NCBI RefSeq assembly: GCF_004014715.1
Contig: NZ_CP034835.1
Span: 3,968,001 to 4,032,000 of the forward strand
Origin: Pseudoalteromonas sp. R3
Lineage (GTDB): Bacteria; Pseudomonadota; Gammaproteobacteria; Enterobacterales; Alteromonadaceae
Direction: 5' to 3'
DNA: 64,000 nt
Each line of letters begins with the position of its first letter. Position 1 is the stretch's first letter. The notes under the pieces were generated by a model. That model worked only from the letters and a program-made list of their open reading frames with translations. It did not search any database and was not told the origin of the DNA. The position numbers and the translations under genes were made by a program. Shown piece after piece: positions 47,421-64,000 of this stretch.

Positions 47421-48386
47421 TTACTTGGCAATTAGTGGCTGGTCATACTGGATCTTCTCCAGACCATTAATAGGGAACATGATTTGGTCGTGGATCACAA
47501 TGCCGGGTGGTTGCGTGCTTTCGAACACACTGCCATCTTTGTCAATAACCGTTGCAGGTGCTGCGGTAATGAAGGAAGAGGCACCTGTGATAGACGCATT
47601 CGGGTGATAACTGATGATCAGATACAGCAGTGAGCTACCATCCTCAGTAGGCAGTAGCGGACAGCCGTTAATTTCTTTTTCATAACGCGCATTACCACGC
47701 TTGTCGGTGATAAATACATTCGGCAGCCCACCGAAAGGCTGTACCACTAACTCGCCTGCCCGATCCCAGACCGCCAGCATCGAGTACATTGAGTTGGGGA
47801 ACAAGTGTTTGAACCTGGCTACAGTTTTTGCCGAATTATCGTTATAACACTGGAACTTGTAACGACCACGCGCTTTAGACCATGAGCCTAAGGTGATCTC
47901 TTCTTTCGGCCCGTCAAAAAATGGCACAGGGTTCGAGTGCTCTGGTAAACGACGCTCGATGTAGCCATGATTACCGATCAGGTCGACATAGGTTGGCTTA
48001 TCCATAATGGGGCGATTTTTAAGTCTGGGATCGGCGTCTGGCATATCAAGAAAACTCTGTAACCAGGCTACATTGATAGGATCCGTCGTTGAAGCAAGAA
48101 TGGTATCTGACTCGCAGTTCTCGGCACTCAATGGTTTGGCGTCCAGCGCACCCGGCGTTGGATCGTATTCGCCAACAAACTGAAAAGACAAGTCGTTGAG
48201 GCTATCGTAAGCCGCCGGGAATTCGAATAATTTACGTCCACAGTAGTTATTTACCCCCGTGGTTAAATGACCTTTTACGGTGCGTTTGGCAATAATTTGT
48301 TTATCGTGTTCACTCTGCTGGGCTTGTGTTTGAGGTGCAACATACAATCCGGTGGCACACAGCAGTCCGATGATCAGTTTGTTCAT
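47421..48386 (-). CDS. Secreted protein of unknown function
   Basis: A 321-residue protein with a signal peptide (1-22, ending TQAQ) and four or more cysteines that could form disulfides. Nothing in it was recognised as a characterised family. The C-terminal half has a repeated beta pattern (YSMLAVWDRAGELVVQPFGGLPNVFITDKRGNARYEKE) followed by LLYLIISYHPNASITG. It precedes the amidase by 13 bp and is probably the first gene of a three-gene unit. Function not assigned. Confidence 0.7.
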   Translation of the reverse strand: MNKLIIGLLCATGLYVAPQTQAQQSEHDKQIIAKRTVKGHLTTGVNNYCGRKLFEFPAAYDSLNDLSFQFVGEYDPTPGALDAKPLSAENCESDTILASTTDPINVAWLQSFLDMPDADPRLKNRPIMDKPTYVDLIGNHGYIERRLPEHSNPVPFFDGPKEEITLGSWSKARGRYKFQCYNDNSAKTVARFKHLFPNSMYSMLAVWDRAGELVVQPFGGLPNVFITDKRGNARYEKEINGCPLLPTEDGSSLLYLIISYHPNASITGASSFITAAPATVIDKDGSVFESTQPPGIVIHDQIMFPINGLEKIQYDQPLIAK

Positions 48387-48489: not shown

Positions 48490-49425
48490 TTAGATGCTAA
48501 TGACAATCTTGCCGCGCACATGCTCGGTTTCTGATAAGGCATGGGCTTCGCCAATGCTTGTAAAAGGCATTTCAACAATTTCCGGAAGCTTGATTTCCCC
48601 GTTATCAATTAATGCCCCAATTTCACTAAGCTGACCGCCGTTTGGCATTACCAATACGCGCTCGTGTGCGAAGTCATATCGGGCTGGTAACTCGTGTGTT
48701 TTAAGTGTTGAAATATATTTGCCAGTTGCTTTTACTGTGTCGTAAATACCCGCAACATCGTTGTCGACAATATCAAAGACCACATCAAACTGACCCAGAT
48801 CTTGCAGATAGTCCGGTGTATTGTAGTCAACCACTTGATCTGCGCCTAAGGTACGCAAGTAATCATGATTCTTTGCTGATGCAACCGCCGTAACGGTGGC
48901 ACCCAGACGCTTTGCAAACTGCACAGCGAAGCTGCCAACACCGCCGCTGGCACCATGAATAAGGATCGATGTCTCAGAATCGATATCAGCCAATTGATTG
49001 ATCGCCTGCCAGGCGGTCAAAGAGGTAAGCGGGACAGATGCTGCTTGTGCAAAATCCAACTTCTGTGGTTTTTTTGCAAGCAAAGCAGCATTCACACTGA
49101 TAAACTGTGCATAAGCACCGTCTTTGGTCAGATCGCCGAATGCATACACCGGCTCGCCAACCTGAAAATCCGTCACGTTCTCGCCGACTTTAGCAATAGT
49201 CCCGGCAACGTCCCAACCCAGAATCAAAGGCAACTGATGAAGCTCTTCTTCTGCCAACCAGCCTTCGCGGACTTTCCAGTCAACCGGATTAACACTGGTA
49301 TATGCCACTTCTATCAGTACGTCGTCCTCAGCAACGTTGGGCAGTGCGACCTGCTCTTCAAGCAGTTTACTCTGCCCACCGTATTCGTGAATTCTGAGGG
49401 CCTTCATAGTCGTGATGTTCGTCAT
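48490..49425 (-). CDS. NADP-dependent quinone-oxidoreductase-like MDR enzyme
   Basis: A 311-residue zinc-independent medium-chain dehydrogenase. N-terminal GroES-like fold (MKALRIHEYGG, YTSVNPVDWKVREG, GWDVAGTIAKVGENV) is followed by the NADP-binding ILIHGASGGVGSFAVQFAKRLGATVTAVASAKN (Rossmann AxxGxxG) and GADQVVDY. Relatives reduce quinones or activated alkenes. A near-perfect lux-box-like palindrome lies 65-84 bp upstream of the start, which suggests control by the LuxR encoded nearby. Confidence 0.88.
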   Translation of the reverse strand: MTNITTMKALRIHEYGGQSKLLEEQVALPNVAEDDVLIEVAYTSVNPVDWKVREGWLAEEELHQLPLILGWDVAGTIAKVGENVTDFQVGEPVYAFGDLTKDGAYAQFISVNAALLAKKPQKLDFAQAASVPLTSLTAWQAINQLADIDSETSILIHGASGGVGSFAVQFAKRLGATVTAVASAKNHDYLRTLGADQVVDYNTPDYLQDLGQFDVVFDIVDNDVAGIYDTVKATGKYISTLKTHELPARYDFAHERVLVMPNGGQLSEIGALIDNGEIKLPEIVEMPFTSIGEAHALSETEHVRGKIVISI

Positions 49426-49550: not shown

Positions 49551-50237
49551 TCAGGCAGCCACTTCCAAATGATTCAGCACTTTACCATGCTCATTCAATC
49601 TCAACTCAGCGACCTGGTATTTGCCAAATAATAAAGGCAAGGTACTTTGCAAACTGGCAGCCAGGTCAACTAACAATACTTTGGGATTATGTTCATAGTA
49701 GCGCCCCCAGGTCGATTGCTGCTGTGGTGGTAACATCTCGACGCTGGCCCGCGCTACTTCATGAAAATAAAACCCCAGCCGGCCAATCATTTTTTCAACG
49801 ATGGGGGTAACAGTCACTAAGGTATATTTCTGACCTTTTGACCACATAATATAAGGTAAGGACTCCAGTAGTTTGAGCGCACCACCTCGTCCCTTAAAAG
49901 ACGAGAATGCACCAATCTCACAAATTTCCTGACGAGACAGCTCTATGCCTAATGTATCGAGCACATGGGTTTCAATGTTATCTCCTTCTATATATTGCTC
50001 CGAGAATAAGGCTTTGTTTGCTGCATAGGTAATCCCATAGGCCGCCAAATACTCTTCACAGCCATTGGCGCTCTTTTTCAGTGAGACGAACTCGTCAACC
50101 TTAGGCTCAATAATGGCCTCGTGAACCAGTTCATAGTGACTCGCGACCAGCTGTTTAAGAATAGAAAAACAGGATGAGTCAGGGTTTATGGTATTAATCG
50201 TGGACAGTGTTTTTGTACAGTTTTCAATTGCAGTCAT
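49551..50237 (-). CDS. Thermostable hemolysin family protein (GNAT-like)
   Basis: A 228-residue soluble protein that matches the pattern of the thermostable-hemolysin family (delta-VPH type, PF12261): AAYGITYAANKALFSEQYIEG, a CEIGAFSSFKGRGGALKLLESLPYIMWSKG core like an acyl-CoA binding region, then TVTPIVEKMIGRLGFYFHEVARA and WGRYYEHNPKVLLVDLA. The middle resembles an acyltransferase (GNAT) scaffold, like LuxI itself. Despite the family name, hemolysis is not shown for most members and no signal peptide is present. It is divergent from luxI across 265 bp with lux-box-like elements. A role as acyltransferase is inference. Confidence 0.68.
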   Translation of the reverse strand: MTAIENCTKTLSTINTINPDSSCFSILKQLVASHYELVHEAIIEPKVDEFVSLKKSANGCEEYLAAYGITYAANKALFSEQYIEGDNIETHVLDTLGIELSRQEICEIGAFSSFKGRGGALKLLESLPYIMWSKGQKYTLVTVTPIVEKMIGRLGFYFHEVARASVEMLPPQQQSTWGRYYEHNPKVLLVDLAASLQSTLPLLFGKYQVAELRLNEHGKVLNHLEVAA

Positions 50238-50502: not shown

Positions 50503-51150
50503 ATGACTAAGGCAATCTCAATCATCGAAAACAACTGGCAGGTACTGGTAACACGTGCATCAAACAAACTTATCGACTGCTTTAAACTCAGACACAGTGT
50601 TTTCTCTGAAGAACTGCGCTGGGTAAAAACAGAACAAAGTAAAATGGAAATCGATAAGTACGACTTTGCCAGCACTCATGTCATGGCCTATCAGGAAGAT
50701 ACTGTGAAAGGTTACATGCGTATCACTCCTGAGCATTCGCCCTGGCTGCTGAATGATACATTTAGCTTTCTGATTGAAGATAAAAACTATCAGTTTGAGA
50801 AAAACAGTGCAGAAGTAACACGTCTTGCTGTAGACATCATTTCCAGAGATGCCAAGGTAAAAGACACCTTTACAGTGTGTGACCTGCTGATAAAAGGATT
50901 ACTGGCACATGCACAGCAAAATAATATTCAATACTGGTATATCGTTGTTTCAAGACAGATTTTGTCACTACTAAAGCGTAAAGGCCTGCCATGTGAAATA
51001 CTGGGAAAAACGGTGACTATGCCAGATGGAGTGAGAACCGTTGCAGCCAAAATTGATGTACGCCAGTTTATTTCTGCCTGTAACCAATTTTATCTGACAA
51101 ATACCGCACCAGAACCTGCAGAAAATATATCTTATCTGCAAGCTGCATAA
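50503..51150 (+). CDS. luxI: LuxI-family acyl-homoserine-lactone synthase
   Basis: A 215-residue autoinducer synthase using SAM and an acyl carrier. All residues usually invariant in LuxI proteins are visible at proper spacing: Arg30, Phe34, Trp40, Asp51, Asp54, Arg73, Phe87, Glu104 and Arg107 (LRHSVF, ELRW, MEIDKYD, GYMRITP, AEVTRLAVD). The C-terminal half, which sets acyl length, is divergent, so the AHL cannot be predicted. A SD-like AAAGGAAC precedes the ATG. luxR follows on the same strand 141-150 bp later with its own predicted promoter. Confidence 0.93.
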   Translation: MTKAISIIENNWQVLVTRASNKLIDCFKLRHSVFSEELRWVKTEQSKMEIDKYDFASTHVMAYQEDTVKGYMRITPEHSPWLLNDTFSFLIEDKNYQFEKNSAEVTRLAVDIISRDAKVKDTFTVCDLLIKGLLAHAQQNNIQYWYIVVSRQILSLLKRKGLPCEILGKTVTMPDGVRTVAAKIDVRQFISACNQFYLTNTAPEPAENISYLQAA

Positions 51151-51262: not shown

Positions 51263-51300
51263 AAAAATTCTCATTAAAACGTAACTATGGTGTGCTTAAT

Positions 51301-52035
51301 ATGATTGATAAGGATAAATTGATCCAAACACTGGATTTTGTCGATAGCTGTGTAAAATCGGAAAATGACAGTACTTCAGTAAATAACTTATTTAATAAAC
51401 TAGACAAACTCATTCCCATCAAATCCGCGATTTTGGCCATTGATGTACAAAATCAATTCCAACTTACAAGTCCCTCTCAACTATTTTCCTACAACTTGAG
51501 CAATGAGTGGCAGGATATCTACTTTCAACGTAAGTTCTATCAACAAGATCCTGTTCTTAATGCGCTTTCTCAAAGCAACCAGGTGGTTGACTGGCAAAGT
51601 GCGTTTCAGTTCTCTCCAGCGAAAGAGCAATACTCCAGTGATTTTCAGTTTTTATCTCAGAAATATGTGGGGAGTCACGGCTTATCTATTGTTGTCAACA
51701 ACCACAGTGGCTCTACCTTACTGTCTATTTCGACCGAGGCCATAACCAATAAAGCAGACGCGCATATCTTGTCTTACATCGCGCCGCACTTTCACGAACT
51801 GTTTTCACGCGATGGTGAAAACACACGACGAAAAATTGGCATGCCGCAACTATCCAAGCGTGAACTTGAAGTCTTGCAATGGGCCAAAGAGGGTAAGAAC
51901 AATGGTGATATTGCTATCATCCTCAGTATATCCGAGCGTACAGTCAAGTTTCATTTGTCTAATATATTCACTAAGTTGAACGTGGTGAACCGTTCTCAGG
52001 CGATAGCTAAAGGTATGAGTTTCGGGATTATCTAA
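51301..52035 (+). CDS. luxR: LuxR-family AHL-responsive transcriptional regulator
   Basis: A 244-residue regulator (ATG 51301; a GTG three codons earlier at 51292 is also possible). The autoinducer-binding domain keeps the TraR-type ligand residues at correct spacing: counted from the GTG, Trp73, Tyr77, Asp86, Pro87, Trp101 and Gly130. The C-terminal LuxR helix-turn-helix (about 187-240) reads LSKRELEVLQWAKEGKNNGD and continues with SERTVKFHLSNIFTKL. It should bind AHL made by the adjacent LuxI and recognise the lux-box-like elements around 49490-50385. Confidence 0.93.
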   Translation: MIDKDKLIQTLDFVDSCVKSENDSTSVNNLFNKLDKLIPIKSAILAIDVQNQFQLTSPSQLFSYNLSNEWQDIYFQRKFYQQDPVLNALSQSNQVVDWQSAFQFSPAKEQYSSDFQFLSQKYVGSHGLSIVVNNHSGSTLLSISTEAITNKADAHILSYIAPHFHELFSRDGENTRRKIGMPQLSKRELEVLQWAKEGKNNGDIAIILSISERTVKFHLSNIFTKLNVVNRSQAIAKGMSFGII

Positions 52036-52365
52036 GGCAGTACCTTAAAAAGTAAAAAACATATTCTGTTACAAATAATATATCCACAAAATAAACAAAC
52101 CTATTTAAGTGGATATATTATTTCAAGATGATAGTTAGAATAATACTAGCTTTTATTGAAGATAATAGAAAAATACCATTCACAACAACAATTCGACATT
52201 CAGCAGTTACAACAAAGACGATAAAAATATCATATACCAAATATTGAAATTAATCATGAACCATCATGGTGCATTATTTACACTTGATTCACGAAATAAC
52301 CTATGAGTGGTATTGTTGTATTTATTCACACAGATACAGAAATACAATACCCTGTAGTCGTGCTA
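52036..52365. other. AT-rich region between convergent luxR and the eight-gene operon
   Basis: 330 bases with no gene. It holds the long hairpin at 52073-52123 and otherwise nothing I can assign. Confidence 0.5.
52073..52123. terminator. Long AT-rich hairpin after luxR, possible terminator
   Basis: Perfect 15-bp inverted repeat (AAATAATATATCCAC / GTGGATATATTATTT) with a 21-base loop that itself contains AAATA/TATTT. It lies 38 bases after the luxR stop and could end transcription from either side, though the outer flanks are not strong T tracts. Confidence 0.5.
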
Positions 52366-53670
52366 TTAAGCTGCCATTGCCTGTTCATCAGGTTCAGGTT
52401 CCGCTATTTGCCAATTTTCAATAGCGATTTCACAACTATTCCCTTTGAGGACTTCAACATGGCTAAAATTAATACGCAATGCGCCCTGCCTGTAGGCACA
52501 GGGCTCAAAGACATCCAGACCCAGAGCTTTTGCAGCATCATTTAACTGCTTTTTAGCACGGCACAGTTTGACATTAAACTGAGTTTCATTGTCGCCAATC
52601 ATACGATGCAATAGCTCACGCTCAACCCACCCCGTTAGCAAAGGATCGACTTTTTCACCCGCTTCCCAGGCTTTCATCGCTTGCTCATGATATTCACGCA
52701 CCAATAACAGCAAGATATAGTGATGTACCCGCTCGCCCAGATCCACGCTCTGCGAGTCGCGCTTGAGCAGCAAACGCACATGCCAGTCGTTGTCACTGAC
52801 CTCAAAGCGCAGTGAGACAGGAGCATCGTTTCTTATTGTCGGCGTCACTTGCACTTTCGCAGTTCCAGCTATGGGAGCTGGTGTTACTTGCAGCGCTTCT
52901 TGCTCGACAAATGCTTCATCACCACCAAATAAGCGTAGACAGATATATTTTTCGAGCAACGCTAGGTCAAAAAATCGCTGATAGTCACCATAGCTTTCCA
53001 GCACAGAGCCTACTGCCAGAGCGCATCGCTCTCGATTAAAAAAGTGAGCACTCACCTGCAAGTAGTTGCAACCGTGCTCTATTGCACGCAGAGCATTATC
53101 ATGAGCGTCAATATTTGAAGAATAAAAGATAAATTCCGTACTCAGCTCATAGGCCAACGCCTTGGGTGCGAGCCACAGCATAAAATTCTCAACCCCGGCA
53201 GGGCGAAACCCACCCAGGCAATCTTCAAATGCGATCCGATCGCAGCCAATCAGGTCGCAGACTCGCAATGCCTTTTTGAGCTCCTGGCTGCCAATACGAT
53301 ATGCCTCTTGCAATACCAGCCTGAAGCGAAACACTTTATGTGTCAGTGCCGACTCCAGTGTATCGATCAGATCAGCGACTCGCGCTTTGCTTGCCAGTAA
53401 TTCAGGCTCAACACGCACATAACATAACCGAGGCAAGTCAGCACCGCCTTCCTCTAACATCTGTTGCAGCTGTGCCACTGTCATCGTGCTCCAGACATCG
53501 TCCATACAGGCATCAGCCCCAGACCAGACGATGTCCGCAAAATTTGCCTGTTTACTCAGAGCCAGCAGCTCAGCCGCAACCGGCTGCTCCACACGCTCAA
53601 CAAAGCCCTGAAATGTGGCGGGATACAGCTGTCTGTTCCAATTTTCCACGTGTTTTCGAACGGTTCCCAT
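52366..53670 (-). CDS. Two-domain protein: HMGL-like TIM barrel plus winged-helix-like C-terminus
   Basis: A 434-residue protein, last gene of the operon. SD AAGGAG precedes the ATG. Residues about 1-260 resemble an HMG-CoA-lyase/isopropylmalate-synthase barrel: CDLIGCDRIAFEDCLGGFRPAGV and IDAHDNALRAIEHGCNYLQVS align with the D-x-G-G-x-x-P and AN-x-x-A-x-x-G regions. The usual catalytic RDG start and metal-binding HxH are missing (YSSN instead), so catalysis by the normal route is doubtful. Residues about 290-420 (VHHYILLLLVREYHEQ, GWVERELLHRMIGDNETQFNVKLCRAKKQL) look like the winged-helix domain found at the C-terminus of some regulators. It may be a ligand-sensing regulator or a modified enzyme. 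Both domain calls are tentative. Confidence 0.45.
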   Translation of the reverse strand: MGTVRKHVENWNRQLYPATFQGFVERVEQPVAAELLALSKQANFADIVWSGADACMDDVWSTMTVAQLQQMLEEGGADLPRLCYVRVEPELLASKARVADLIDTLESALTHKVFRFRLVLQEAYRIGSQELKKALRVCDLIGCDRIAFEDCLGGFRPAGVENFMLWLAPKALAYELSTEFIFYSSNIDAHDNALRAIEHGCNYLQVSAHFFNRERCALAVGSVLESYGDYQRFFDLALLEKYICLRLFGGDEAFVEQEALQVTPAPIAGTAKVQVTPTIRNDAPVSLRFEVSDNDWHVRLLLKRDSQSVDLGERVHHYILLLLVREYHEQAMKAWEAGEKVDPLLTGWVERELLHRMIGDNETQFNVKLCRAKKQLNDAAKALGLDVFEPCAYRQGALRINFSHVEVLKGNSCEIAIENWQIAEPEPDEQAMAA

Positions 53671-53735
53671 TTGTTGCTCTCCTTTTAATCCCTCATAATC
53701 TCGACGGTAAACAGAACCACATCGTTAACTGCTGA

Positions 53736-54628
53736 CTAGACGGCGTGCTGTGCCTGCGCACGCTGAGCCAACACAAAGTACACCGCAATACCACCCCAGA
53801 TAAATGCCAGTCCCAGCCACTGACCTGCCATCACGACTTCTTTAAACAGGAGCACCGCAATCAACAACATCAGTGTCGGATTAAGGTACTGAGACAGAGA
53901 CACAAATGCGCTGCTGAGGTGTTTCACAGAAAAGTTATAAAGTAACAAAGGCAATGTGGTTACCACACCCAGAATGCACAGTTTCACTATGTCGCCCTGC
54001 TGCAACTGATGGGATAAACCGCTACCCGACGCAGTATAATGAGACCACGCCAAATACAATAGAGCGGGTAATGCAGCACACACATGCTCCGCCGCCAGAA
54101 CCACTACCGCAGGTTCGCGCAAGTAGCGTCTGAGCACCACATACAGTGCAAACGTTAAGGCGATAACCAGCCCCTGCCAGGGTAGCGCAGCATAAGCTTG
54201 CATCTTGATGTACAACATCACGCCACACAGGCACAAGGTCAGACACACATATTCTTTGAGCTGAAGCCCTTCACGATTAACCAGCTTAAGTAATAGTAAA
54301 GTCAGGACCGGTGCCAGGTAGTATCCCAGACTGGCACTGTTGAGCTGCTCACTGCTAATGCTGCTGATCACCAGCAGCCAGTTGCTGGCAATAAGCATGG
54401 CACTGAGAGCGATTAACTTAAACCGGCCACGCAGCAACGCAAGCAACGCGCTTTGCTGCCCCATCAGCGTTACTAACACCAGACACATCACGGTCGCCAG
54501 GACAATTCTCAGGCTCAGTAAATCAAACAGGGCAATGTGTGTCAGCTGATGAAAAAAATCGCTGCTGACGCCCACAACAGGTAGGCAAGTAAATTACTTG
54601 CCTGCGCGGTTTTAGTGCGCCTCAACAT
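53736..54628 (-). pseudogene. DMT/EamA-family exporter, frameshifted near its start
   Basis: Continuous reading from GTG 54575 gives 279 residues of a ten-helix RarD/EamA-like transporter that lacks its first helix. In another frame, an ATG at 54628 overlapping the upstream stop codon encodes MLRRTKTAQASNLLAYLLW, exactly the missing N-terminus. Joining at the G run (plus-strand CCC, 54571-54573) with one extra G restores YLLWGVSSDFFHQL, a standard helix 1. So the gene is probably 53736-54628 with a one-base deletion or assembly error. It would export the operon product or a precursor. Only if the GTG start works would a shortened protein be made. Confidence 0.72.
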
Positions 54629-56429
54629 GGCTGCGCACTCACTTGCTGAAATAGTACAAAATCCTGGCCACTGGCCACACTCAGCCTGTCACCATTTCCC
54701 ACTCGCAGAGGCCCGACCTGAAGCGTGCCCTCATTACTGAGTATGGCGGCCACCCGAGTAATATCACGACGACAGTCCGCCAGCAGCTCCTGTACTGAAC
54801 AACGCGGCAGCTGCTCCATCAGCAGGTTAATTGGTACCAGACTGTGTAAACTCAAACCTCGCCCATAAAGTGCCCTGGTCGGGAACTCCCGGTGATAATG
54901 GAAGGTGAAGAAATCCCCATCATGGCAGCACAGTGGCAACAGCAGCTGCGGATCAATCACAGGCTCCAGTTCTATCACAGTGGTAAAGGCTCCCTGTAAG
55001 GCATCTTCTTCCAGCTGCACTGTGGTGACAGTCTCAATCCCAGCAACCTGGCTCTGGATAAGCGTCTGCTTTTGCAGTTTATTATCTACTAACAAGCTCA
55101 CCTGATAGCCAGCTTCTAGCAAGGCATCTGCAACCAGGGTGGTCGACAACCGATCGCGGCCCACCAGCAAAACCCGTCCCTGCTGAACATGTTTGAGTTT
55201 TTGCCGTATCAGCCAGGCTTTGCTGTACGGGTAAATAAGGTTACCCAGCAACTTATCATCAAGTTTCTCAGGTGCTTTAATCACATGCTGTTCACTCACC
55301 AGCACAAAGTCCGCCAGCGCGCCCAGCCGCTGGCTTTCTGCCAGCAAACACCCAAACACTCGCTCGCCAATTTTTAGCGAACTCTGACTATCTGCCACAT
55401 GAACCACTTCGCCGATAAACTGACTCAGCGGTACCAGAGCACTTTGCGACAACAGCTGGGGATATTCACCCGCTAAAATGCGCTGGTCCAGCTCCGAGAA
55501 ACCACATCCGGTCACCTTCACCAGCACTTGTCCGGCAGCCACCACAGGACGTGCTACAACCTGCTGATGCAAGGTCTGATCCTCGCTGTTTAACCGGCTT
55601 ATTCGCATGACCTTATCATTCAGGCTTCGCTCCAAAAAAGCGCTCAGTGCACGGTTAAACTGCTGGGCATCCTCAACATGGGGACAATGATGACAACCCG
55701 TAAAAGTGTGGGCCTGAAACTGTGCAATTTGCTGCTCCAGGTCCGTGACATACTCGCAGTGAATGAAAGGATCTGCCTCACCTGTGATGGCCAGTGACGG
55801 GATCTGAGCTTGCTGTAACAACGCAACTTCATCGCATATTGGCCCGCTCTGCAGACCTGCCAGGATCCCTTCGCGCACACCGGGCTGAGTCAGTTCAACA
55901 CTGTGCGACACTTTCAGCCACTGTGCCAAAGAAACTTGCTCTTTATTGACGAACAGACCACACACCTGCTCAACATCCTCATCGCTCAATTCAGAGCGAA
56001 AAATACGCCCCTGAGATGGCTCTTCTTTAAACGCTTGCGCAGCAGTATCGGCTGAAAATGGTGGTGCGCCTACCAGTACGACGCCTTTCACCTGAGGTAA
56101 GTGAGGCAAAGCATCCAGTGCCACGTGTCCCCCAGGCTGTGGCCAATGATGACACATTCATCCAGCTGCAATGCACCGATGAAATCACGTAATTGAGTCA
56201 CACATCCGGCAAAGCTGTAAGCATCACTCTGATGTGCAGCAGACGACTCACCATGGCCAAGAAAATCCACAGCCAGACAATGAAAATGCGCACCGAAGTA
56301 GTTCATCTGGGCGTCAAACGCCGCCGCTTGCGAAGAGTTCCCATGCAAAAATATCAAAGTGGGGCCACGTCCGGTCGACTCCAGATAACTGATGGTGCCC
56401 TGGGAGGTGGTGAGTCTAGCTCGCTTCAT
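54622..56429 (-). pseudogene. Alpha/beta hydrolase fused to an MDR-like reductase domain, frameshifted
   Basis: The N-terminal part (56429 to about 56130) is an alpha/beta hydrolase: FLHGNSS oxyanion region and nucleophile Ser98 in GHSLG, where the frame breaks. The other frame continues directly with GGHVALDALPHLPQVKGVVLVGAPP and the acid and His regions (GEADPF, HCPHVED). From about residue 275 a second domain resembles a medium-chain reductase (VARPVVAAGQVLVKVTGCG, GRVLLVGRDRLSTTLVADAL) with a degraded glycine motif. A single G missing from a G5 run (56129-56133) explains the break and would give about 602 residues. It overlaps the acyltransferase gene by 14 bp and the exporter start by seven. 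An enoyl- or acyl-modifying bifunctional enzyme is plausible; function unknown. Confidence 0.7.
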
Positions 56430-57666
56430 GATAAATCTCCTGATATTGTTCGATAAACGCGCTCACCTGACGACTAAACAGCGCATTAATTTGCTGTGCC
56501 ATCGCCGTTGACATCAGAGGCTCACAGTAAGTGAAGACACAGTTCAACCTGTGCCCTGAGGTTGCCAGGTGACATGCAATCCCAACGTTTCCGGCATTGC
56601 GATTGGCAAAATTGGCATACTCCCGAACAACCACGCCGTGTCGGGCGGTATCAAACTGCACCACACCATGGTTGGTCATGGCAAAATCACAGCCAAAGCG
56701 TGACGGGTTGTCCGCACTCTGGCGTAACCGGAGCAAAGATTGCTCATCCATTGGCGGCACATAGCCAAGCTCAGCATCAATCGTTTGTGCTAACTGCTGA
56801 TCAAATTGACGAGCAAAAGTTGGCCAGTTCGTGCTGCCAGGCATATCCAAAGCACTGACGGCAATCAAACACCCAAGTGCAGAAGAGGCGCTTTTTACTG
56901 AGGTACGCTGCCTGAGTGAGATAGCCATTAACAGGCGTAACTTGCCTGTGCTGTGCACCTGTTTAATGGCCTGAGTCAAAATGTATGTCAGGACCGTATT
57001 GAGCGCACTGTCACTGTGTTTGGCAATGGCTTTCAGTGCAACCAAAGCGTCTTGTTCAATGGTTTGTCGGCAAAACCGGGTGTGTCGCTGGGCCGGTTTT
57101 GCCTGGGTGACAACGGGCCACCCCATGTGGGATGGCAGGGTCGCAGCAGTACCTCGCGCCCGCTCCAGCTGAGATTCAATCGCCGGTGCAAGTTCACTGC
57201 GCTCGCTATGTGTCAGGTTGTGATAACAATGCAGCAACTGGTCAAGCAGGTAGGCCAGACTGTGACCATCTACCAATGCATGGTGACAAGTCAGGGCAAT
57301 GTGGCTTATCGCCGTATCCTGCTGCTGGATAAGCAGAACAGAGCACAATTGCCGCTGCGGCTGTAATGGCGTGTTCAACACCGCCTGGATCAACGACTCC
57401 AGAGCCTTGTCATGTGCAACTTCCGCCAAATCTAGCTCGTGCAGCTGCCCAACTGCAGGCGCCTCTGTAAAAGCATCCTGCTGATTATTCAGTGTCAACA
57501 TCAGTGCCGGATTAAGCTGTAACCAGCGTGTCATCGCTTTAGCCAGCCTTGTCTCGTCGAGCTGTTGTCCAAGTGTCAGTAAAGACGTTGTCTGAGCATT
57601 CCCCTGCACATCGTGCAGAGTTGCCATTTTTCGCTCTAAAGTGCCAAGTGCTCTTATTTCATTCAT
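56416..57666 (-). CDS. Condensation-domain-type acyltransferase
   Basis: A 416-residue stand-alone protein of the chloramphenicol-acetyltransferase/condensation superfamily. The catalytic HHxxxDG motif is HHALVDG (128-134) in a CHHALVDGHSLAYLLDQLL context, and NTVLTYILTQAI and LRLLMAISLRQRT fit the second half. The NRPS DFGWG motif is not evident, as in PapA5-like and wax-ester acyltransferases. It probably joins an acyl thioester to an alcohol or amine made by the operon. It lies two bases after the monooxygenase and overlaps the hydrolase gene. Confidence 0.75.
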   Translation of the reverse strand: MNEIRALGTLERKMATLHDVQGNAQTTSLLTLGQQLDETRLAKAMTRWLQLNPALMLTLNNQQDAFTEAPAVGQLHELDLAEVAHDKALESLIQAVLNTPLQPQRQLCSVLLIQQQDTAISHIALTCHHALVDGHSLAYLLDQLLHCYHNLTHSERSELAPAIESQLERARGTAATLPSHMGWPVVTQAKPAQRHTRFCRQTIEQDALVALKAIAKHSDSALNTVLTYILTQAIKQVHSTGKLRLLMAISLRQRTSVKSASSALGCLIAVSALDMPGSTNWPTFARQFDQQLAQTIDAELGYVPPMDEQSLLRLRQSADNPSRFGCDFAMTNHGVVQFDTARHGVVVREYANFANRNAGNVGIACHLATSGHRLNCVFTYCEPLMSTAMAQQINALFSRQVSAFIEQYQEIYHEAS

Positions 57667-57668
57667 GA

Positions 57669-59132
57669 TCAGGCACTCTCAGCCAGTAACAGTGTGTCAT
57701 TTAAAAAACGGCTGCACTGTATTTCATTGCCACTGAAGGCAATGATCTTATCGGGCCGGACCAGTACACACTCGGCCTCAGGATCAAATTGATGTGCCAC
57801 TGTGTCTCGTTGACATACCTGGATCCGAGCCTGTTCACCTGAATACGCCACTTGTTGAGCCAAACGCTCCGCGCATGCAGCATCACTGGCAAACAAGGTG
57901 TATCCAGTGCCCTGGTGCCGATAACCTTGCAGATCAAGGGGTAAATAAATACGGCCTACACCTTTGACTGACTCAGTTGCAGCATAATCAAGCTGATAAC
58001 CAGCCGCCGCCTGAACAAATTGGCGAATAAAGGGACGATTTTTCTGTTTGGGCGTAAATAGCGCTTCGTCATCTGCCGAGTGCCGGTCAAGACGCGCGAT
58101 CAGCGAGGTATTTTTATCAGTCAGGCGCAGTAACGATTTGGCGTTCTGGCGGCGCTCTGTGTCATAGCTATCTAACAGCACGTCTGGCGCTTCGCCTTTA
58201 GCTACCTGAGCCAACTTCCAGGCCAGATTATACGCATCTCCAATGCCTGTATTCATACCAAAACCACCGATCGGGCTGAACAAGTGACAGGCGTCGCCGC
58301 AGATAAACACATTGCCACGTCTGAACTGGCTGGTTTCACGATTATAAAAGGGGGCTGAGGAAATCCAGCTGGGTTCGAAAATCTCCAGATCAGGATCAAG
58401 GCGCCGTAAATAGGCCTGGATCAGGTCAAAGTCGATGGTCTGCTTAGGGTCAAACGCCCCGGAAACCTTAATAACAATTCGGTGATAGCCCTCGGTCAGT
58501 GGCAGCAAAATAAAGAACCCATCTTCGCTGACCATGTAATAGCTCTGACTGGTGTCACGGTTCCAGCGCACCTTCACATCCGCCAGAACAAAATGCATAT
58601 CATAATCGTACCCACTGAAGGGTAATTTGAGTAACTCCCGGGTACGACTGCGCGCGCCATCACAGCCAACCACATAATCATAGGTATCTTTATATACTTG
58701 GCCATCTCGGGACAGCGTCACCTGTACCTGAGCACCCTGCTGCTGCAAATCGACCAGCGCCGTGCCACGTTCCACCTCACAGCCCATTTCGGCCATACGC
58801 GCCTGCAATGCTGCTTCGGTATCTGGTTGTGGCAGCATCAAAAAGTACGCAAAGCGACTGTTCAGTTGTTTAAAGTCCAGCTTAAACAAACGCTGACCTT
58901 CATAAATTAAGTTTACACTCTGGTTTTGTTTGCCACGTGCAAGCAACTGCTCCGTCACGCCCAAATCATCCAGAATATCTAACGAAGCCGGGTTCACACT
59001 CAGCGCTTTAGAACCGGACCCGGCAGCCACACGTGAATCAATCACGGTTGCATCAACGCCTAAACGTTTGAGTTGTAGCGCCAGCACCATGCCTGTTGGT
59101 CCGGCCCCTACAATTAAGACTTGCTTAACCAT
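57669..59132 (-). CDS. FAD-dependent aromatic-hydroxylase-type monooxygenase
   Basis: A 487-residue group A flavoprotein monooxygenase. The chosen ATG at 59132 gives MVKQVLIVGAGPTGMVLALQL with the GxGxxG loop; a GTG nine codons upstream lacks support. The DG motif is in YVVGCDGARSRTRELL and the second FAD motif is VFICGDACHLFSPIGGFGMNTGIGDAYNLAWKL. A thioredoxin-like C-terminal domain typical of the phenol-hydroxylase/RebC/polyketide-hydroxylase branch is present. Such enzymes hydroxylate electron-rich rings or tailor polyketides using NAD(P)H and O2. It follows the aldo/keto reductase in the operon. Confidence 0.86.
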   Translation of the reverse strand: MVKQVLIVGAGPTGMVLALQLKRLGVDATVIDSRVAAGSGSKALSVNPASLDILDDLGVTEQLLARGKQNQSVNLIYEGQRLFKLDFKQLNSRFAYFLMLPQPDTEAALQARMAEMGCEVERGTALVDLQQQGAQVQVTLSRDGQVYKDTYDYVVGCDGARSRTRELLKLPFSGYDYDMHFVLADVKVRWNRDTSQSYYMVSEDGFFILLPLTEGYHRIVIKVSGAFDPKQTIDFDLIQAYLRRLDPDLEIFEPSWISSAPFYNRETSQFRRGNVFICGDACHLFSPIGGFGMNTGIGDAYNLAWKLAQVAKGEAPDVLLDSYDTERRQNAKSLLRLTDKNTSLIARLDRHSADDEALFTPKQKNRPFIRQFVQAAAGYQLDYAATESVKGVGRIYLPLDLQGYRHQGTGYTLFASDAACAERLAQQVAYSGEQARIQVCQRDTVAHQFDPEAECVLVRPDKIIAFSGNEIQCSRFLNDTLLLAESA

Positions 59133-59185
59133 TACACATACTCTTTTGTTGAGGGGCACCCAAACCTGGGTGCCGGAACTTAGAA

Positions 59186-60184
59186 TTACAGGTTAGTGCC
59201 TGCCAGAATCGCTTCCGGGTAGCGCTCACCCGCAACATTGTCGCGAGAGAACAACTCATCCAGAGACGTAATGATCGAGTCAGACAGGGTGACGTTCTGT
59301 GCCGCGAAATTGTCGCGCAGATATTTCACGCGTTTGGTGCCTGGGATAACATGGACGTTTTCATGACGGCTCAGTAGCCACGCCAGTGCAACCTGGCCTG
59401 TTGAGCAACCCAGCTCGCGACTGATCTCTTCCACTTTATTAACCAGCGCCAGGTTAGTGTCGATATTTTCTTTCTGGAAGCGAGGGAGTTTGGCGCGGAA
59501 ATCTGAAGCCACATCCGCCTGCTCGATTTGTTCTTTACTGATCTGCCCGGTTAAGAAACCACGCCCCAGCGGGCTGTAAGCGATAAACTGCACACCCAAG
59601 TCAATACAGGCAGGCAGGATCTCAGTTTCAATATCACGGCTCCACAGTGAATACTCACTCTGCAGTGCTTCAACCTGGTGTACCTGGTTTGCACGACGCA
59701 GTGTATCGGCAGAGACTTCAGACAGACCAATGGCCTTAATCTTGCCCTCTTTAACCAGCTCAGCCAGTGCTTCCATAGGCTCTTCGATAGGCACATTCGG
59801 GTCACGGCGGTGCATATAATAAATGTCCAGCGCTTCGAGGTTCATACGCTTCAGAGACGCCTCGCACGCTGCTTTGACATATTCTTTGCTGTTATCAATG
59901 ATCAGGTTGTATTTGTCGTTTGGATCGCGGCGAATACCAAATTTTGAGGCAAAGACGATATCATCACGCTTACTACCAATGTCACTGACAAACTGGCCCA
60001 GCAACGATTCGTTGTGACCCTGACCATACATATCCGCAGTATCGAAATGGTTATAACCCATATCCAGCGCAGCGTGCAGCGTTTCCAGAGATTGCGCATC
60101 ATTACGCTCACCGTAGAACTCACTCATTCCCATACAGCCTAAGCCAATTGGAGATACCAGTTTGTTTGCTAGTCGTTTAGACAT
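59186..60184 (-). CDS. Aldo/keto reductase
   Basis: A 332-residue NADPH-dependent AKR barrel. Tetrad visible: Asp and Tyr in FDTADMYGQG (about 47-56), Lys in FASKFG, His in LDIYYMHRRD. The C-terminal VIPGTKRVKYLRDNFAA binds NADPH. It is closest to the AKR13/YakC-like group. In the operon it follows the HAD gene after 136 bases and would reduce a carbonyl, perhaps the keto group of an AfsA-type butenolide product. That role is inference from neighbours. Confidence 0.88.
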   Translation of the reverse strand: MSKRLANKLVSPIGLGCMGMSEFYGERNDAQSLETLHAALDMGYNHFDTADMYGQGHNESLLGQFVSDIGSKRDDIVFASKFGIRRDPNDKYNLIIDNSKEYVKAACEASLKRMNLEALDIYYMHRRDPNVPIEEPMEALAELVKEGKIKAIGLSEVSADTLRRANQVHQVEALQSEYSLWSRDIETEILPACIDLGVQFIAYSPLGRGFLTGQISKEQIEQADVASDFRAKLPRFQKENIDTNLALVNKVEEISRELGCSTGQVALAWLLSRHENVHVIPGTKRVKYLRDNFAAQNVTLSDSIITSLDELFSRDNVAGERYPEAILAGTNL

Positions 60185-60238
60185 AATTCTCTTCCATTTT
60201 AGTTAAGTTAAATTGTGTTCAATTACATTACCTGGATG

Positions 60239-60296
60239 CCAGAAAGCGCCTCCCGCTGTACGGTGCTTCTTTCTGGTTATCCTGCTGTGGTTATCC
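60239..60296 (-). other. Hairpin and direct repeats in the HAD to AKR gap
   Basis: CCAGAAAG (60239-60246) pairs with CTTTCTGG (60269-60276), and GGTTATCC occurs twice, 14 bases apart start to start (60275, 60289). This is the only sizeable gap in an otherwise tight operon. A processing site, attenuator or internal operator is possible. Confidence 0.35.
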
Positions 60297-60320
60297 AGTT
60301 GCGTTTATTGTTGATTAAAA

Positions 60321-61049
60321 TTAGTGGCAGACGTACTGCCTGAACGTACAGTTCTGATCAGAAATCGTGGTGAATACTTCATACCCGACGTCCTGATTTG
60401 CAATCAGAGTTGGCGCCAGCGGATCCACCAAAAACCCTTTATTAACAGCACCTAACATAGGGAAGTCACTGAGGTCATCACCAAAAGCCAGGCAAGCATC
60501 GGCAGAGATCTGGTGCTGACATAAAAACTGCGCGATAAAATGTGCCTTCCCCTGACCTATGCTCGGCAGGTCATCCAGCTCGCCTGTATAGCGTCCATCT
60601 TTTTGCTGTTGAGGCGCACACAACACATCACTGACCTGCCACAATGCCGCAAAAGGTGCCAGCAGGTGATACCCGGATCCGGAGACCAAAATGGTGTTAT
60701 ACCCGGCTTGCTGTAATGCCTTCAGTGCAGCCAGCGGAGCCGGCTTAATGTAGGCATCAGGCTTGGGTAACGTGGTAAACCACAGTTGTGCTGCCTCAGC
60801 AAACGCACTGACTGCAACCCCCTCAAATAAGGTGTAGTAAAAGCGATTGATTTCACTGCGTGGACGCTGTGCTGCAAATAAGCGCTCCAAGCGCTCGCGC
60901 CAGGCTCCGAAACGTTCAGCCGGAACCAAAAGCGCGTTGTCCTGTAAAAAATCGGCGAATGAAAACATACTTTTCAGGTCGATAAGCGTGTTATCGACGT
61001 CAAAGAACGCGCAGGGTCTCTGCGCGATGACGTTAGGCTGCCACATCAC
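60321..61049 (-). CDS. HAD-superfamily (subclass IB) phosphatase
   Basis: A 242-residue phosphoserine-phosphatase-like HAD enzyme with all four motifs: DVDNT (17-21, nucleophile Asp), VSGSG (about 119-123), the lysine of GKAHFI, and FGDDLSDFPML (about 188-198). The helical cap fits subclass IB. The start overlaps the end of the AfsA-like gene by 17 bases, pointing to translational coupling. In A-factor synthesis AfsA forms a phosphorylated butenolide that must be dephosphorylated, so this enzyme is a natural candidate for that step. Confidence 0.82.
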   Translation of the reverse strand: MMWQPNVIAQRPCAFFDVDNTLIDLKSMFSFADFLQDNALLVPAERFGAWRERLERLFAAQRPRSEINRFYYTLFEGVAVSAFAEAAQLWFTTLPKPDAYIKPAPLAALKALQQAGYNTILVSGSGYHLLAPFAALWQVSDVLCAPQQQKDGRYTGELDDLPSIGQGKAHFIAQFLCQHQISADACLAFGDDLSDFPMLGAVNKGFLVDPLAPTLIANQDVGYEVFTTISDQNCTFRQYVCH

Positions 61050-61797
61050 AGACCGCTCCTTGCTCTGCCAATGCCGTTTGCAGGTGCTCCACCGCCTGCT
61101 TGGCCATGCTGCCTTCTTTGCGAGACAGGAATTTCTCCGGGTAGGTACTGAACTTGGTCTTCACACGGGCACAATCCTGGCCGTTCTGCGATAAGGTCAT
61201 CTCTACATCGAAGCACAAAGTGCCGCGTCCTTTGTCGGTGAAGCTCAAAATGCGATATTCCAGCTCCAGAGGCAGTGGAAACGCAAAGCTCAGATACTCA
61301 CTATCCAGCGAGTTAATCACGAAGTAACTTTTTTCAGCATCGGCCAGGAAATAGCGTTCGGTAATAGCCAAAAACGCCTGACGTGCAGACTCTGTCAGCA
61401 CCATGCCCTGAATATGGTGCCCGGTGACATGGTCACCCATTTCATCGCAGGCATCGTCGATATAAATAGGCAGACGGTATAAATTGTCTTCAATTTGTTG
61501 CGGTTCCCCTAACATACCGTTGCGTTTTTGATGCTTATGGGTTTCCTGTTTATTCAGCTTATTAAAGGAAGGAGTTGCAAACGCTGCTGCCATGCCTTTT
61601 TCCTCTGCCAAATTAAGTAGCGCCTGGTAAGCATCCGCACAAATTCCCTGACCTAATACAAACTGGGTGGTCGAGAGTTGCTCATCATTTGTTTCCAGCA
61701 TAGTGCGTGCTTGTTCATAAGTGGTAACGCCCGGGTTTTGTGCAAAGTTAGTGAACTTATTCCCGACCAGTACTTGGGTTTGCTTAACTGTTTTCAT
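61033..61797 (-). CDS. AfsA-like hotdog protein (A-factor/butyrolactone synthase family)
   Basis: A 254-residue protein from the ATG 61797, which has a GGAG site seven bases upstream; a longer frame to 61917 would run through the promoter palindrome. The diagnostic region is GDHVTGHHIQGMVLTESARQ (121-140), close to the DHVPGM-x-L-x-EAARQ hotdog motif of AfsA, preceded by HKHQKRN (87-93), the counterpart of the conserved HKRRxE. The Streptomyces enzyme transfers a beta-ketoacyl chain to dihydroxyacetone phosphate. Here only one strong hotdog repeat is seen. It is first in the eight-gene operon, before the HAD phosphatase. Confidence 0.66.
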   Translation of the reverse strand: MKTVKQTQVLVGNKFTNFAQNPGVTTYEQARTMLETNDEQLSTTQFVLGQGICADAYQALLNLAEEKGMAAAFATPSFNKLNKQETHKHQKRNGMLGEPQQIEDNLYRLPIYIDDACDEMGDHVTGHHIQGMVLTESARQAFLAITERYFLADAEKSYFVINSLDSEYLSFAFPLPLELEYRILSFTDKGRGTLCFDVEMTLSQNGQDCARVKTKFSTYPEKFLSRKEGSMAKQAVEHLQTALAEQGAVCDVAA

Positions 61798-61892
61798 GAT
61801 TATCTCCGTTGATGTTGGTTTATTAAGCCCGCGGCAATATTGTTGTTGCTGTCTGCCGCTTTGGTGTCTCCCATTAAAATCAACAATCGCCA

Positions 61893-62070: not shown

Positions 62071-62781
62071 ATGAATAAATTTCTGACTCTGGTAGCAACC
62101 ACCGCACTGACTTTTGGTACAACCAACGCAATGGCGCAGGATGATGACTGGCAGGACCATGAGATGGCTTACCAGCAAGAACAAGATGCGCCGCCATTTA
62201 ACATTAAGCGCATTCTCAGAAATAAAACCTTTTTACGCAGCCTTAATAAACAACATGCATATTTTGAGGGCAGCCAGATAGTACGACGTTTTTTCCTGTG
62301 CATTCCGGAAGCCTCTAACTTTAAGGAGGATTATGTCCGGGTTGATGAAGTCAAAGCCTGCTTTAATGACATTGTCAGCCCGGCGATTGAGCTGGATCTC
62401 AATGGCAGTCTGTCCACCGGGATTGATTCCACCATACAGATCGCAACAGAAGGTCTGGCACAGCTGAGACAAAATGCGTCTTTTTCGCCCACTTCTTTCT
62501 ATATTAGCCATTATGAAGAGGGTAACCGCCCGGGTACTGGCAGAATGGAGTTAAACTTTAATGTGCTGGTTCATCAGGAAATTGTACAGTCCACGGATGT
62601 TGAGTTGCCGTTTGAACCTCTGCTAGGGCCGCAGCTGTTCGTCAGCAATAACACCTTAGGCGTGATTGCCACTAAGCCGGGTGAGTGGAAGATTGATTTA
62701 CTAAAAGTGCGTTCCATTTTCACTGAGCAACGCCCGGATATCAGTTACCAAAATCCATTCCCTAACTATCCGATCAACTAA
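62071..62781 (+). CDS. Secreted protein of unknown function
   Basis: A 236-residue protein with a signal peptide (1-22, ending NAMAQ). The mature part is acidic at first, then mixed alpha/beta, with two cysteines (CIPEASN and KACFND) that could pair. No family was recognised. It is divergent from the AfsA-like gene across the TGAAAT-repeat region and so may be co-regulated with it. A start context AAGGAAC precedes the ATG. Confidence 0.7.
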   Translation: MNKFLTLVATTALTFGTTNAMAQDDDWQDHEMAYQQEQDAPPFNIKRILRNKTFLRSLNKQHAYFEGSQIVRRFFLCIPEASNFKEDYVRVDEVKACFNDIVSPAIELDLNGSLSTGIDSTIQIATEGLAQLRQNASFSPTSFYISHYEEGNRPGTGRMELNFNVLVHQEIVQSTDVELPFEPLLGPQLFVSNNTLGVIATKPGEWKIDLLKVRSIFTEQRPDISYQNPFPNYPIN

Positions 62782-62875: not shown

Positions 62876-64000
62876 TTACGCCGCTTTGACACCGGTAATT
62901 TTATATAACCACTTTCTGGGCATAGTGAACTGACGTTTGATCAGCGCATTCATCAGCTTCAGGAATAGTTTTGGACGCTTACCTAAGGTCGCAAGCACCC
63001 CTTCCAACGCTGTGATACAACGCGTGATCTCATCATGAGACACTGTCAGTGGCGGATAAAATCGCAGTACCGGATGCGTTGCCTTTTCATTCATGGAGTG
63101 ACCCAGATGAATGTTGTGACGTCCCATCATCATAGTAATCGCCGTTTCAACTGCCGGACTGGCACACTTTAACCCGGTCATCAGGCCAACTCCGGGCACA
63201 TCTAATACCAGCTCTGGATATTTAGCCGCCACCCGGCGCATTTCGCTAAGCAGATACTCACCTTGCTTTTGCGCACGCGCCACCAATTGCTTCTGCTCGA
63301 TAAAATCCAGCGCTGCCAGAGCGGCGCTGCTGCTATAAGGGTGACCCCCGGCAGTCGCGAAGAAAGCCTCATCCACTTGGATGTCATTGCGCAGTCGCTT
63401 GTCCAGGCGCTCGGAGAAAACCGCAACAGCAATCGCCGCATGTCCACCGGTCAGACCTTTAGACAGGATCACGATATCCGGCTCCACCTGATCATAGTCA
63501 ATCCCAAACATTTTGCCGCAACGGCCAAACGCAGTCTGGATCTCATCCGCAACCAGGTAAGTACCATACTCCCGACACAGGCTTTCCACTTGTTTCAGAT
63601 AACCCAGCTGAGGCACCTGCAGGTAAGGCCCGCCAAGTATAGGCTCGATGAAAACGGCTGCGGCCTCTTGTGCAATGGCTTCACGCATTTGTGCAATGTC
63701 ACCAAAATCCACATACACGACGTTATCTGCCAGCTTACCAAATGGCAATCGATGACCACGCTGACCAAGAATATTCAGCGCCCCCAGAGTTTTACCATGG
63801 TAACTGTTACGGGCTACCACGATCCGGTCGCTGCTCGGGTGAGCCGTGATCACCGCACGCATAGACAATTCACTGGCCTCAGCACCTGAATTACAATAAT
63901 AGCTACGATTCAGGTCGCCCGGCAGCATCTCTGCCAGACGCTCTGACAAACGTTGTGTTTGCAGGTCTTCAACCCCAACAGCACCAATTGATACTTGCTC
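62876..64000 (-). CDS. Class III PLP aminotransferase, partial (window edge)
   Basis: The frame stays open to the last base (EQVSIGAVGVEDLQTQRLSER...), so the start lies beyond 64000; an internal TTG at 63949 is not the start. At least 374 residues are present. PLP-fold features are CNSGAEASELSMR, ARNSYHGKTLGAL, the cofactor Asp in LVADEIQTAFGRCG and the Schiff-base Lys in ILSKGLTGGH. It resembles acetylornithine/ornithine and putrescine aminotransferases. The C-terminal tail (KLFLKLMNALIKRQFTMPRKWLYK) is basic and extra. Proximity to the biosynthetic operon suggests it may supply an amine, but it could also be a separate transcript. Confidence 0.85.
   Translation of the reverse strand, partial: EQVSIGAVGVEDLQTQRLSERLAEMLPGDLNRSYYCNSGAEASELSMRAVITAHPSSDRIVVARNSYHGKTLGALNILGQRGHRLPFGKLADNVVYVDFGDIAQMREAIAQEAAAVFIEPILGGPYLQVPQLGYLKQVESLCREYGTYLVADEIQTAFGRCGKMFGIDYDQVEPDIVILSKGLTGGHAAIAVAVFSERLDKRLRNDIQVDEAFFATAGGHPYSSSAALAALDFIEQKQLVARAQKQGEYLLSEMRRVAAKYPELVLDVPGVGLMTGLKCASPAVETAITMMMGRHNIHLGHSMNEKATHPVLRFYPPLTVSHDEITRCITALEGVLATLGKRPKLFLKLMNALIKRQFTMPRKWLYKITGVKAA

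Follow-up and report, generated by a model that had tools for sequence, protein, structure and literature searches.

A LuxI/LuxR-linked afsA-type gene cluster of Pseudoalteromonas sp. R3 as a probable source of a butenolide-type small molecule

The region analyzed here is a 64,000-nucleotide stretch (referred to as the window) of contig NZ_CP034835.1 of Pseudoalteromonas sp. R3, whose genome consists of 2 contigs and 5.82 Mb. The right-hand part of the window contains an afsA-type gene and its associated operon, located beside a luxI-luxR gene pair. A preliminary description had regarded positions 52366..61797 as an operon for biosynthesis of an A-factor-like compound. The positions of the genes named there were confirmed, and the core genes were indeed present, but they constituted only a part of a larger unit of about 20 genes, spanning from approximately 45096 to approximately 3.9 kb past the window end (64000). 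The core and quorum-sensing genes are listed below with protein identities to Moritella sp. PE36 where noted.

50503..51150, plus strand: LuxI-type autoinducer synthase (PF00765, 78.3 bits against a cut-off of 24)
51292..52035, plus strand: LuxR-type receptor/regulator for N-acyl homoserine lactone (AHL) (PF03472, 40.5 bits; PF00196, 76.4 bits; both above cut-off)
52366..53670, minus strand: 434-aa putative regulator, with a degenerate barrel of homocitrate-synthase type and a C-terminal domain common to FHA proteins, likely a winged helix
53736..54626 (listed open reading frame (ORF) 53736-54575), minus strand: EamA/RarD-type transporter (PF00892, above cut-off)
54622..56429, minus strand: fusion of an alpha/beta hydrolase and a medium-chain reductase, interrupted here by a frame break but intact in relatives
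56416..57666, minus strand: standalone condensation-domain (PapA5-like) acyltransferase (PF00668, 53.5 bits; HHxxxDG motif present as CHHALVDG; 30% to Moritella)
57669..59159, minus strand: class A FAD-dependent monooxygenase (FAD_binding_3), abbreviated FMO (PF01494, 250 bits)
59186..60184, minus strand: aldo/keto reductase (AKR) (PF00248, 258 bits; 73% to Moritella)
60321..61046 (61049 with a GTG start), minus strand: HAD-IB phosphatase (PF12710, 95.8 bits; TIGR01490 above cut-off; FDVDNT and GDDLSD motifs)
61033..61797, minus strand: afsA-type gene for a 254-aa single-hotdog protein, putative phosphorylated-butenolide synthase (PF03756; 46% to Moritella)

The assignment of the last gene to the AfsA family was supported by a profile search, in which PF03756 matched residues 87-216 as one stretch with 40 bits against a cut-off of 24 (E 5e-10), while Pfam gave no other hotdog family for 61033-61797. 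A FabZ-like identity was rejected, as Pfam yielded AfsA alone; a search of the family profile against PDB gave sub-threshold matches to FabZ-type dehydratases (E 0.19-0.31). The segment DHx(3-5)HxxGx(4)ExxR, which was defined from the alignment in this analysis without a two-domain Streptomyces AfsA as comparison, was detected by a script in the window protein and in 20 of 21 homologues, the one miss being that of genome G552. Gamma-butyrolactone synthases of the ScbA/BarX type have two tandem hotdog domains. The window protein, with its one PF03756 stretch within 254 aa, is a single-domain protein unlike these, and membership of the ScbA/BarX equivalog (NF041195) was rejected at 30.2 bits against a cut-off of 200. 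The gene for the HAD phosphatase was coupled to afsA as described, with an overlap of 17 bp when counted from the GTG and 14 bp from an ATG three bases further on, and the Moritella ORF begins at the matching ATG. The aldo/keto reductase following the phosphatase was likewise confirmed by PF00248. An AfsA-family protein thus occurs with a phosphatase and a reductase, but the label of A-factor-like does not stand, being too narrow given the one hotdog domain, the 30 of 200 bits and the lack of a receptor of the ScbR/ArpA type. For the latter, neither of two genomes searched had a match over the 150-bit cut-off; the best score was 66 bits, and sub-threshold matches of the same kind were seen in 13 of 14 control genomes.

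The unit is extended on both sides of the core by the following genes.

45096..45998, minus strand: second transporter of EamA type, at the left end of the unit (PF00892, 109 bits against a cut-off of 28; 63% to Moritella)
46013..47407, minus strand: amidase of the amidase-signature family (PF01425, 297 bits; 63% to Moritella)
47421..48386, minus strand: distant homologue of SPOA0341 of Ruegeria pomeroyi (hhalign), with a signal-peptide-like start judged by eye (76% to Moritella)
48490..49425, minus strand: medium-chain dehydrogenase/reductase (PF08240/PF13602; 70% to Moritella)
49551..50237, minus strand: PF12261 protein beside luxI (116 bits; family name 'thermostable hemolysin'; 47% to Moritella)
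62071..62781, plus strand: 236-aa protein of unknown family, divergent from afsA, with a signal-peptide-like start judged by eye (68% to Moritella, in the same divergent place beside afsA)
62876..64000, minus strand: class-III aminotransferase, its frame passing the window edge (PF00202; 62% to Moritella)
approximately 64219-67873 in window numbering, outside the window: second aminotransferase, AMP-binding ligase and TauD oxygenase (PF00202, PF00501, PF02668; all with Moritella orthologues)

The left neighbour of the unit (43911-45035) was present in all 13 same-genus genomes used in the empty-site search, including that of the strain itself. The right neighbour (62876-63949) matched at E <=1e-50 only the own genome among 21, in a sample without P. 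rubra-like congeners, and following up this result showed that the unit continues rightward. Terminator-like hairpins were located at 45064-45086 and 62839-62865. Inspection by eye showed an inverted repeat rich in GC (GGCACCCA...TGGGTGCC) and lacking a T tail between the AKR and FMO genes, at 59135-59185, which may divide the operon. The protein encoded by 62071-62781 had no match in Pfam or NCBIfam. The RarD-type transporter scored 105.7 bits with TIGR00688, under its cut-off of 130. An AlphaFold model of the 47421-48386 protein, built from four sequences, had a mean pLDDT of 41 and was not used.

The LuxI-type protein aligned with LasI (E 7.9e-11) and also with EsaI, and the conserved columns KLR..VF, W, MEID.YD, R and E..R aligned to LasI. 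It scored 52.8 bits with the NCBIfam equivalog for TraI-type AHL synthases, missing the cut-off of 250, and its best NCBIfam match was the exosortase-associated acyltransferase TIGR03694 (65.9 bits, likewise short of its cut-off). The LuxR-type protein matched CviR with an E value of 2.3e-24. The proximity of afsA to AHL signalling genes pointed out in the preliminary description was thus confirmed, and the linkage is kept in another genus as shown below. The PF12261 protein adjoins luxI in both the window and Moritella, and its family name says little about its role in the cluster.

The 434-aa protein has the barrel fold of DRE-TIM metallolyases. In a script comparison based on the homocitrate synthase alignment, HxH metal ligands were absent at the expected place in 12 of 12 rows; the fold-search rows for the model mostly cover residues 14-268. 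The C-terminal domain is likely a winged helix, judging from the order of secondary-structure elements and homology to the C-termini of FHA proteins, not from the fold search. The protein is a putative regulator with a new combination of a metal-less homocitrate-synthase barrel and a likely winged helix. Its identity to the Moritella orthologue is 34%.

A locus of Moritella sp. PE36 (L006) encodes orthologues of all 16 genes of 45096-62781 with identities of 30-76%, the highest for the 47421 protein (76%) and AKR (73%) and the lowest for the 434-aa protein (34%) and the acyltransferase (30%). The four right-hand genes are also present: the first aminotransferase (62%), the second aminotransferase (57% and 42% for its two pieces), the AMP-binding ligase (52% and 60%) and the TauD oxygenase (62%). 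Accordingly, the Moritella region holds orthologues of 20 of 20 unit genes, including LuxI and LuxR, with one additional gene of the glyoxalase fold. The gene blocks are rearranged, luxI-luxR being downstream of the afsA operon in P. rubra and upstream in Moritella. As the gene set stays together despite its shuffled order, it is hard to explain without a shared function.

The distribution of the cluster is scattered. AfsA relatives were detected in 7 of 108 Pseudoalteromonas genomes, including that of the strain itself. Their identity was 99-100% in four of these genomes and 32% in two, where the gene belongs to another cluster; in the seventh (G049), AfsA is the end domain of a polyketide synthase (PKS). 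The window AfsA protein is 99-100% identical to loci of Pseudoalteromonas rubra (two) and Pseudoalteromonas sp. XMcav2-N (one). The four genomes with this AfsA, out of 108, were also those with the 47421 protein, LuxI (98-100%) and the full-length 434-aa protein (93-100%). More distant LuxI-type proteins (22-28% identity) occurred in six other genomes of the genus, and the C-terminal part of the 434-aa protein is common by itself, some match being present in 66 of 108. The four carriers are close kin representing one lineage, so that together with Moritella the co-occurrence counts as two lineages, not five. The AfsA family was found in 4 of 369 genomes sampled from the class and in 8 of 394 sampled from the order. 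In a tree of 21 proteins, those of the window, Moritella and P0003 grouped together (support 96/97), with the deeper forks weak or open.

Homologues of the 47421 protein were also seen elsewhere. Thalassomonas sp. RHCl1 (P0023) encodes one with 72% identity, and the homologue search gave no AfsA from that organism. On plasmid pSU2 of Agarilytica (L034:15016-16487), a 30% homologue adjoins an N-acyl synthase of the FeeM/GNAT type, hinting at a tie of this protein family to acyl-amino-acid chemistry; AfsA had no match in the 30.8-kb stretch of this plasmid.

We compared 15 homologous afsA loci (306,120 bases) with 13 control stretches (170,926 bases), several of which were shorter than the loci and came from their flanks; the controls were not drawn at random from the genomes. 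PKS-fused AfsA domains (G013, G049), a partial match in G448 and the close P. rubra relatives were excluded from the 15. The AfsA query matched 15 of 15 loci and none of the controls, and the corresponding counts were 12 and 0 for HAD, 9 and 0 for AKR, 6 and 0 for FMO, 7 and 0 for the 47421 protein, 8 and 0 for SPOA0341, and 4 and 1 for the medium-chain dehydrogenase/reductase. The condensation-type acyltransferase, the 434-aa protein, RarD and LuxI were each found in one locus, that of Moritella, while LuxR, the amidase and the second EamA transporter were found in two. Three layouts were distinguished. The first contains AfsA, SPOA0341, SPOA0343, HAD and AKR in varying order (Ruegeria, G643, G694, G834, G842 and Streptomyces YIM 121038; G420 without SPOA0343 and AKR matches). 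The second has AfsA-FMO-MMPL together with HAD (G102, G123 and G552; G584, on a short contig, has no HAD), and the third is that of the window cluster. These results point to a family of clusters with free-standing, single-hotdog AfsA in scattered genomes, with several distinct gene sets.

Enzymes supplying the presumed substrates recur beside the homologues. Ketosynthase III was encoded at two Pseudoalteromonas loci and one Streptomyces locus, thiolase at all three look-alike loci (G694, G834, G842), and triosephosphate isomerase (TIM) at the Jeongeupia locus, where it was the lowest-scoring of three in the genome. As makers of both substrates recur in this way, chemistry joining dihydroxyacetone phosphate (DHAP) and a beta-ketoacyl thioester is a good fit. 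It is not a universal one, since AKR had no match at the Jeongeupia locus and neither HAD nor AKR was found at the loci of S. clavuligerus (L010) and G416. In the Pseudoalteromonas genomes G102 and G123 (L018, L019), the separate afsA cluster encodes ketosynthase III, an MMPL exporter, an FAD monooxygenase, a short-chain dehydrogenase/reductase and a dienelactone-hydrolase. In G049 (L029:31-9968), a PKS with a ketosynthase has a last protein ending in acyl carrier protein-AfsA, followed by an FMO relative (31%) and an MMPL relative. The PKS is arranged as in gladiostatin biosynthesis, and the gene that follows ties FMO to phosphorylated-butenolide synthase chemistry; the locus is possibly a butenolide-releasing polyketide pathway.

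Several genes of the unit have broken frames in the assembly. ORFs 56088-56429 and 54622-56157 form one hydrolase-reductase gene, encoding 602-610 aa in all three P. rubra-like loci and 620 aa in Moritella; the break lies at a homopolymer run near 56130. The N-terminus of RarD is out of frame at a homopolymer run near 54558, the protein being intact (297 aa) in all three relatives. Outside the window, frame breaks divide the genes for the AMP-binding ligase and the second aminotransferase into two ORFs apiece. Moritella has one undivided ORF for either protein, and the ligase is a single 510-aa ORF in the one close relative compared. Three of the four breaks (hydrolase-reductase, RarD and ligase) coincide with or adjoin homopolymer runs of 5 to 8. 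A housekeeping gene, coaBC, is also split in this assembly (G000:C2 ~4037488-4038701; L068:6489-7702), while a relative has one 404-aa ORF with DFP and Flavoprotein domains, a net difference of one base. Because the position at homopolymer runs is the pattern of sequencing errors and coaBC is broken too, assembly error is the simplest reading of the four breaks. The interpretation of the cluster as a set of pseudogenes was rejected, as coaBC is also broken. The coaBC break hints at homopolymer errors elsewhere in the genome.

From the gene families and their conservation, linkage and motifs, we infer the following reactions, regulation and role. The AfsA-type enzyme would condense DHAP with a beta-ketoacyl thioester, supplied by fatty-acid synthesis or by the AMP-binding ligase of the cluster, to give a phosphorylated butenolide, from which the HAD-IB enzyme would take off the phosphate. 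The aldo/keto and medium-chain reductases would reduce the ring or side chain, which the FAD and TauD oxygenases would oxidise; the class-III aminotransferases would introduce nitrogen, the condensation-type acyltransferase would attach an acyl or aminoacyl group, and the EamA carriers would export the product. LuxI/LuxR would make the system dependent on density, and an acid or acyl-CoA of the pathway may be sensed by the 434-aa protein with its barrel and likely winged helix. By analogy with Ruegeria, the end role may be competition with other bacteria or a signal that switches competition on. A butanolide or butenolide, or its ester, had been suggested as the product. The additional aminotransferases, AMP-binding ligase, TauD oxygenase, amidase and second EamA transporter instead suggest a more elaborate and probably nitrogen-bearing molecule. 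Altogether, we consider it probable, though well short of certain, that the operon forms the central part of a cluster of about 20 genes that is horizontally scattered and makes a diffusible small molecule of the butenolide type. The cluster's own LuxI/LuxR pair most likely places it under quorum control.

Several observations weigh against this interpretation. Fourteen of the 15 homologous loci had no LuxI relative and three had no HAD, and the ketosynthase III and TIM proteins used as queries had no relative in the window. The pathway assigns no step to the proteins encoded at 47421 and 62071 or to the PF12261 protein, four unit genes are frame-broken in the own genome, and identity to any genetically tested protein is low (33% to SPOA0342, whose own reaction is unproved). 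Palindromes resembling lux boxes in 13 intergenic stretches (seven of the window and six of L006) were within the range of simple shuffles, and sigma-70 sites were at the chance level (21 observed against 22.8 in shuffles). LuxR control of the cluster is consequently suggested by gene position only. In addition, the report on P. rubra S2471, so far as its excerpted text goes, described no signal in AHL monitors and no call of a homoserine lactone synthase, the carriage of this locus by S2471 not being established (PMC4359443).

It appeared doubtful that the product is itself a genuine second signal, a butenolide hormone of Gram-negative type for which LuxI/LuxR would form the first layer and the 434-aa protein or LuxR the receptor. 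The gene content is heavier than that of the three-gene mmfLHP system as described in excerpts of the literature, no receptor of the ScbR/ArpA type exceeded the cut-off in the two genomes, and the idea of a receptor derives from the modelled fold. It is somewhat less plausible that the AfsA operon and LuxI/LuxR are independent neighbours. The homologous loci without LuxI indicate that AfsA clusters can do without it, and no lux box was found in the 13 stretches, but AfsA and LuxI share their 4 carrier genomes among 108 and are found together once more, differently ordered, in Moritella, which makes two lineages. A different reaction of the single-hotdog protein, such as that of a thioesterase or dehydratase, or acyl transfer to another acceptor, would yield no butenolide. 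The one hotdog domain, the 30 of 200 ScbA/BarX bits and the sub-threshold FabZ-type matches are in line with this, but the conserved segment, the recurrence of the HAD phosphatase, and the TIM, ketosynthase III and thiolase beside homologues made it rather unlikely. Decay and inactivity of the cluster in this strain, suggested by the breaks in the hydrolase-reductase, RarD, AMP-binding ligase and second aminotransferase, seemed very unlikely. All three close relatives have the first two genes unbroken, the one relative compared for the ligase has that gene unbroken too, the second aminotransferase is one ORF in Moritella (no close relative was compared at this break), coaBC is split as well, and 3 of 4 breaks lie at homopolymer runs.

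AfsA-type butenolides are well known as hormones of Streptomyces. A more specific extension of the quorum-controlled cluster, which is speculative and rather improbable, would be a two-tier circuit, in which AHL and LuxI/LuxR induce the AfsA pathway and a probably amine-bearing butenolide is sensed by a new class of receptor made of the dead homocitrate-synthase barrel and winged helix. If true, Gram-negative and Streptomyces-type signalling chemistries would act in series at one locus. With this core chemistry coupled to a LuxI/LuxR pair in a conserved Gram-negative cluster, a tractable marine bacterium could be used to ask if these molecules serve as signals or as weapons beyond the actinomycetes, which the discussion of the Ruegeria work had not settled (PMC7426152).

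The novelty of a Gram-negative AfsA cluster, implied in the preliminary description, did not hold, as such systems have been published (PMC7426152; PMC7756379, PMC7756420; these and the other papers below, apart from the pangenome paper, are cited from excerpts of their text). In Ruegeria pomeroyi DSS-3, transposon insertions in SPOA0341, SPOA0342 (afsA) and SPOA0344 abolish a diffusible killing activity that depends on density and acts on diverse bacteria (Sharpe et al. 2020, PMC7426152). The afsA gene is required for transcription of most of the killing cluster, whose molecule had not been identified, and the authors place homologues of the trio SPOA0341-0343 mostly in gammaproteobacteria and actinobacteria (PMC7426152). 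The window cluster resembles that of Ruegeria (SPOA0339-0344) in AfsA (33% to SPOA0342), HAD-IB (38%) and AKR (50%), and the 47421-48386 protein is a distant homologue of SPOA0341 (hhalign 97.8%, E 1.2e-12, 144 columns). SPOA0343 had no match in the 64-kb window, the right-hand part outside the window not being searched with it, and 62071-62781 was rejected as its counterpart, giving no match. The tautomerase, CMD, MFS and LysR proteins of Ruegeria have no relatives in the window, and the cluster here differs from that of Ruegeria by FMO, the condensation domain, the hydrolase-reductase, the aminotransferases, the AMP-binding ligase, TauD, LuxI/LuxR and the 434-aa regulator.

In gladiostatin and gladiofungin biosynthesis, a Gram-negative AfsA-type domain uses DHAP or a glycerol-derived C3 unit (PMC7756379, PMC7756420), and DHAP use by the AfsA-like PKS domain of gladiostatin was demonstrated in vitro (PMC7756379). 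Common features are a Gram-negative PF03756 domain and, in the excerpted accounts, a separate phosphatase, which was proposed there. In those systems AfsA is fused to a trans-acyltransferase PKS, whereas here it stands as a separate protein, and none of the 20 genes encodes a PKS. The methylenomycin furan systems (mmfL-mmfH-mmfP, ahfaLHP) combine a butenolide synthase, a phosphatase and a flavin-dependent enzyme (PMC5625687, PMC7037778), as does the cluster here, MmfH and MmfP being compared by description only. Their regulators are described as TetR-type repressors, in contrast to LuxR here. The Pseudoalteromonas loci of the second layout (G102, G123) share AfsA (31-32%), HAD, AKR and FMO within 20 kb, but carry ketosynthase III, GST, MMPL exporter and LysR-like genes instead of LuxI/LuxR, the condensation domain and aminotransferases. 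In the same species, antiSMASH called a homoserine-lactone cluster for P. rubra S4059 ('BGC 7, hserlactone'), given by its class name only, and the excerpt mentions no butyrolactone cluster (PMC7917724). A term search of the main text of a 2026 genus pangenome paper found neither 'butyrolactone' nor 'butenolide' (PMC13385065), and among the matches listed no description of the locus was found in the open-licence literature. What is new compared with these systems is a Gram-negative AfsA cluster linked to LuxI/LuxR across two genera, together with its gene set and its unusual putative regulator.

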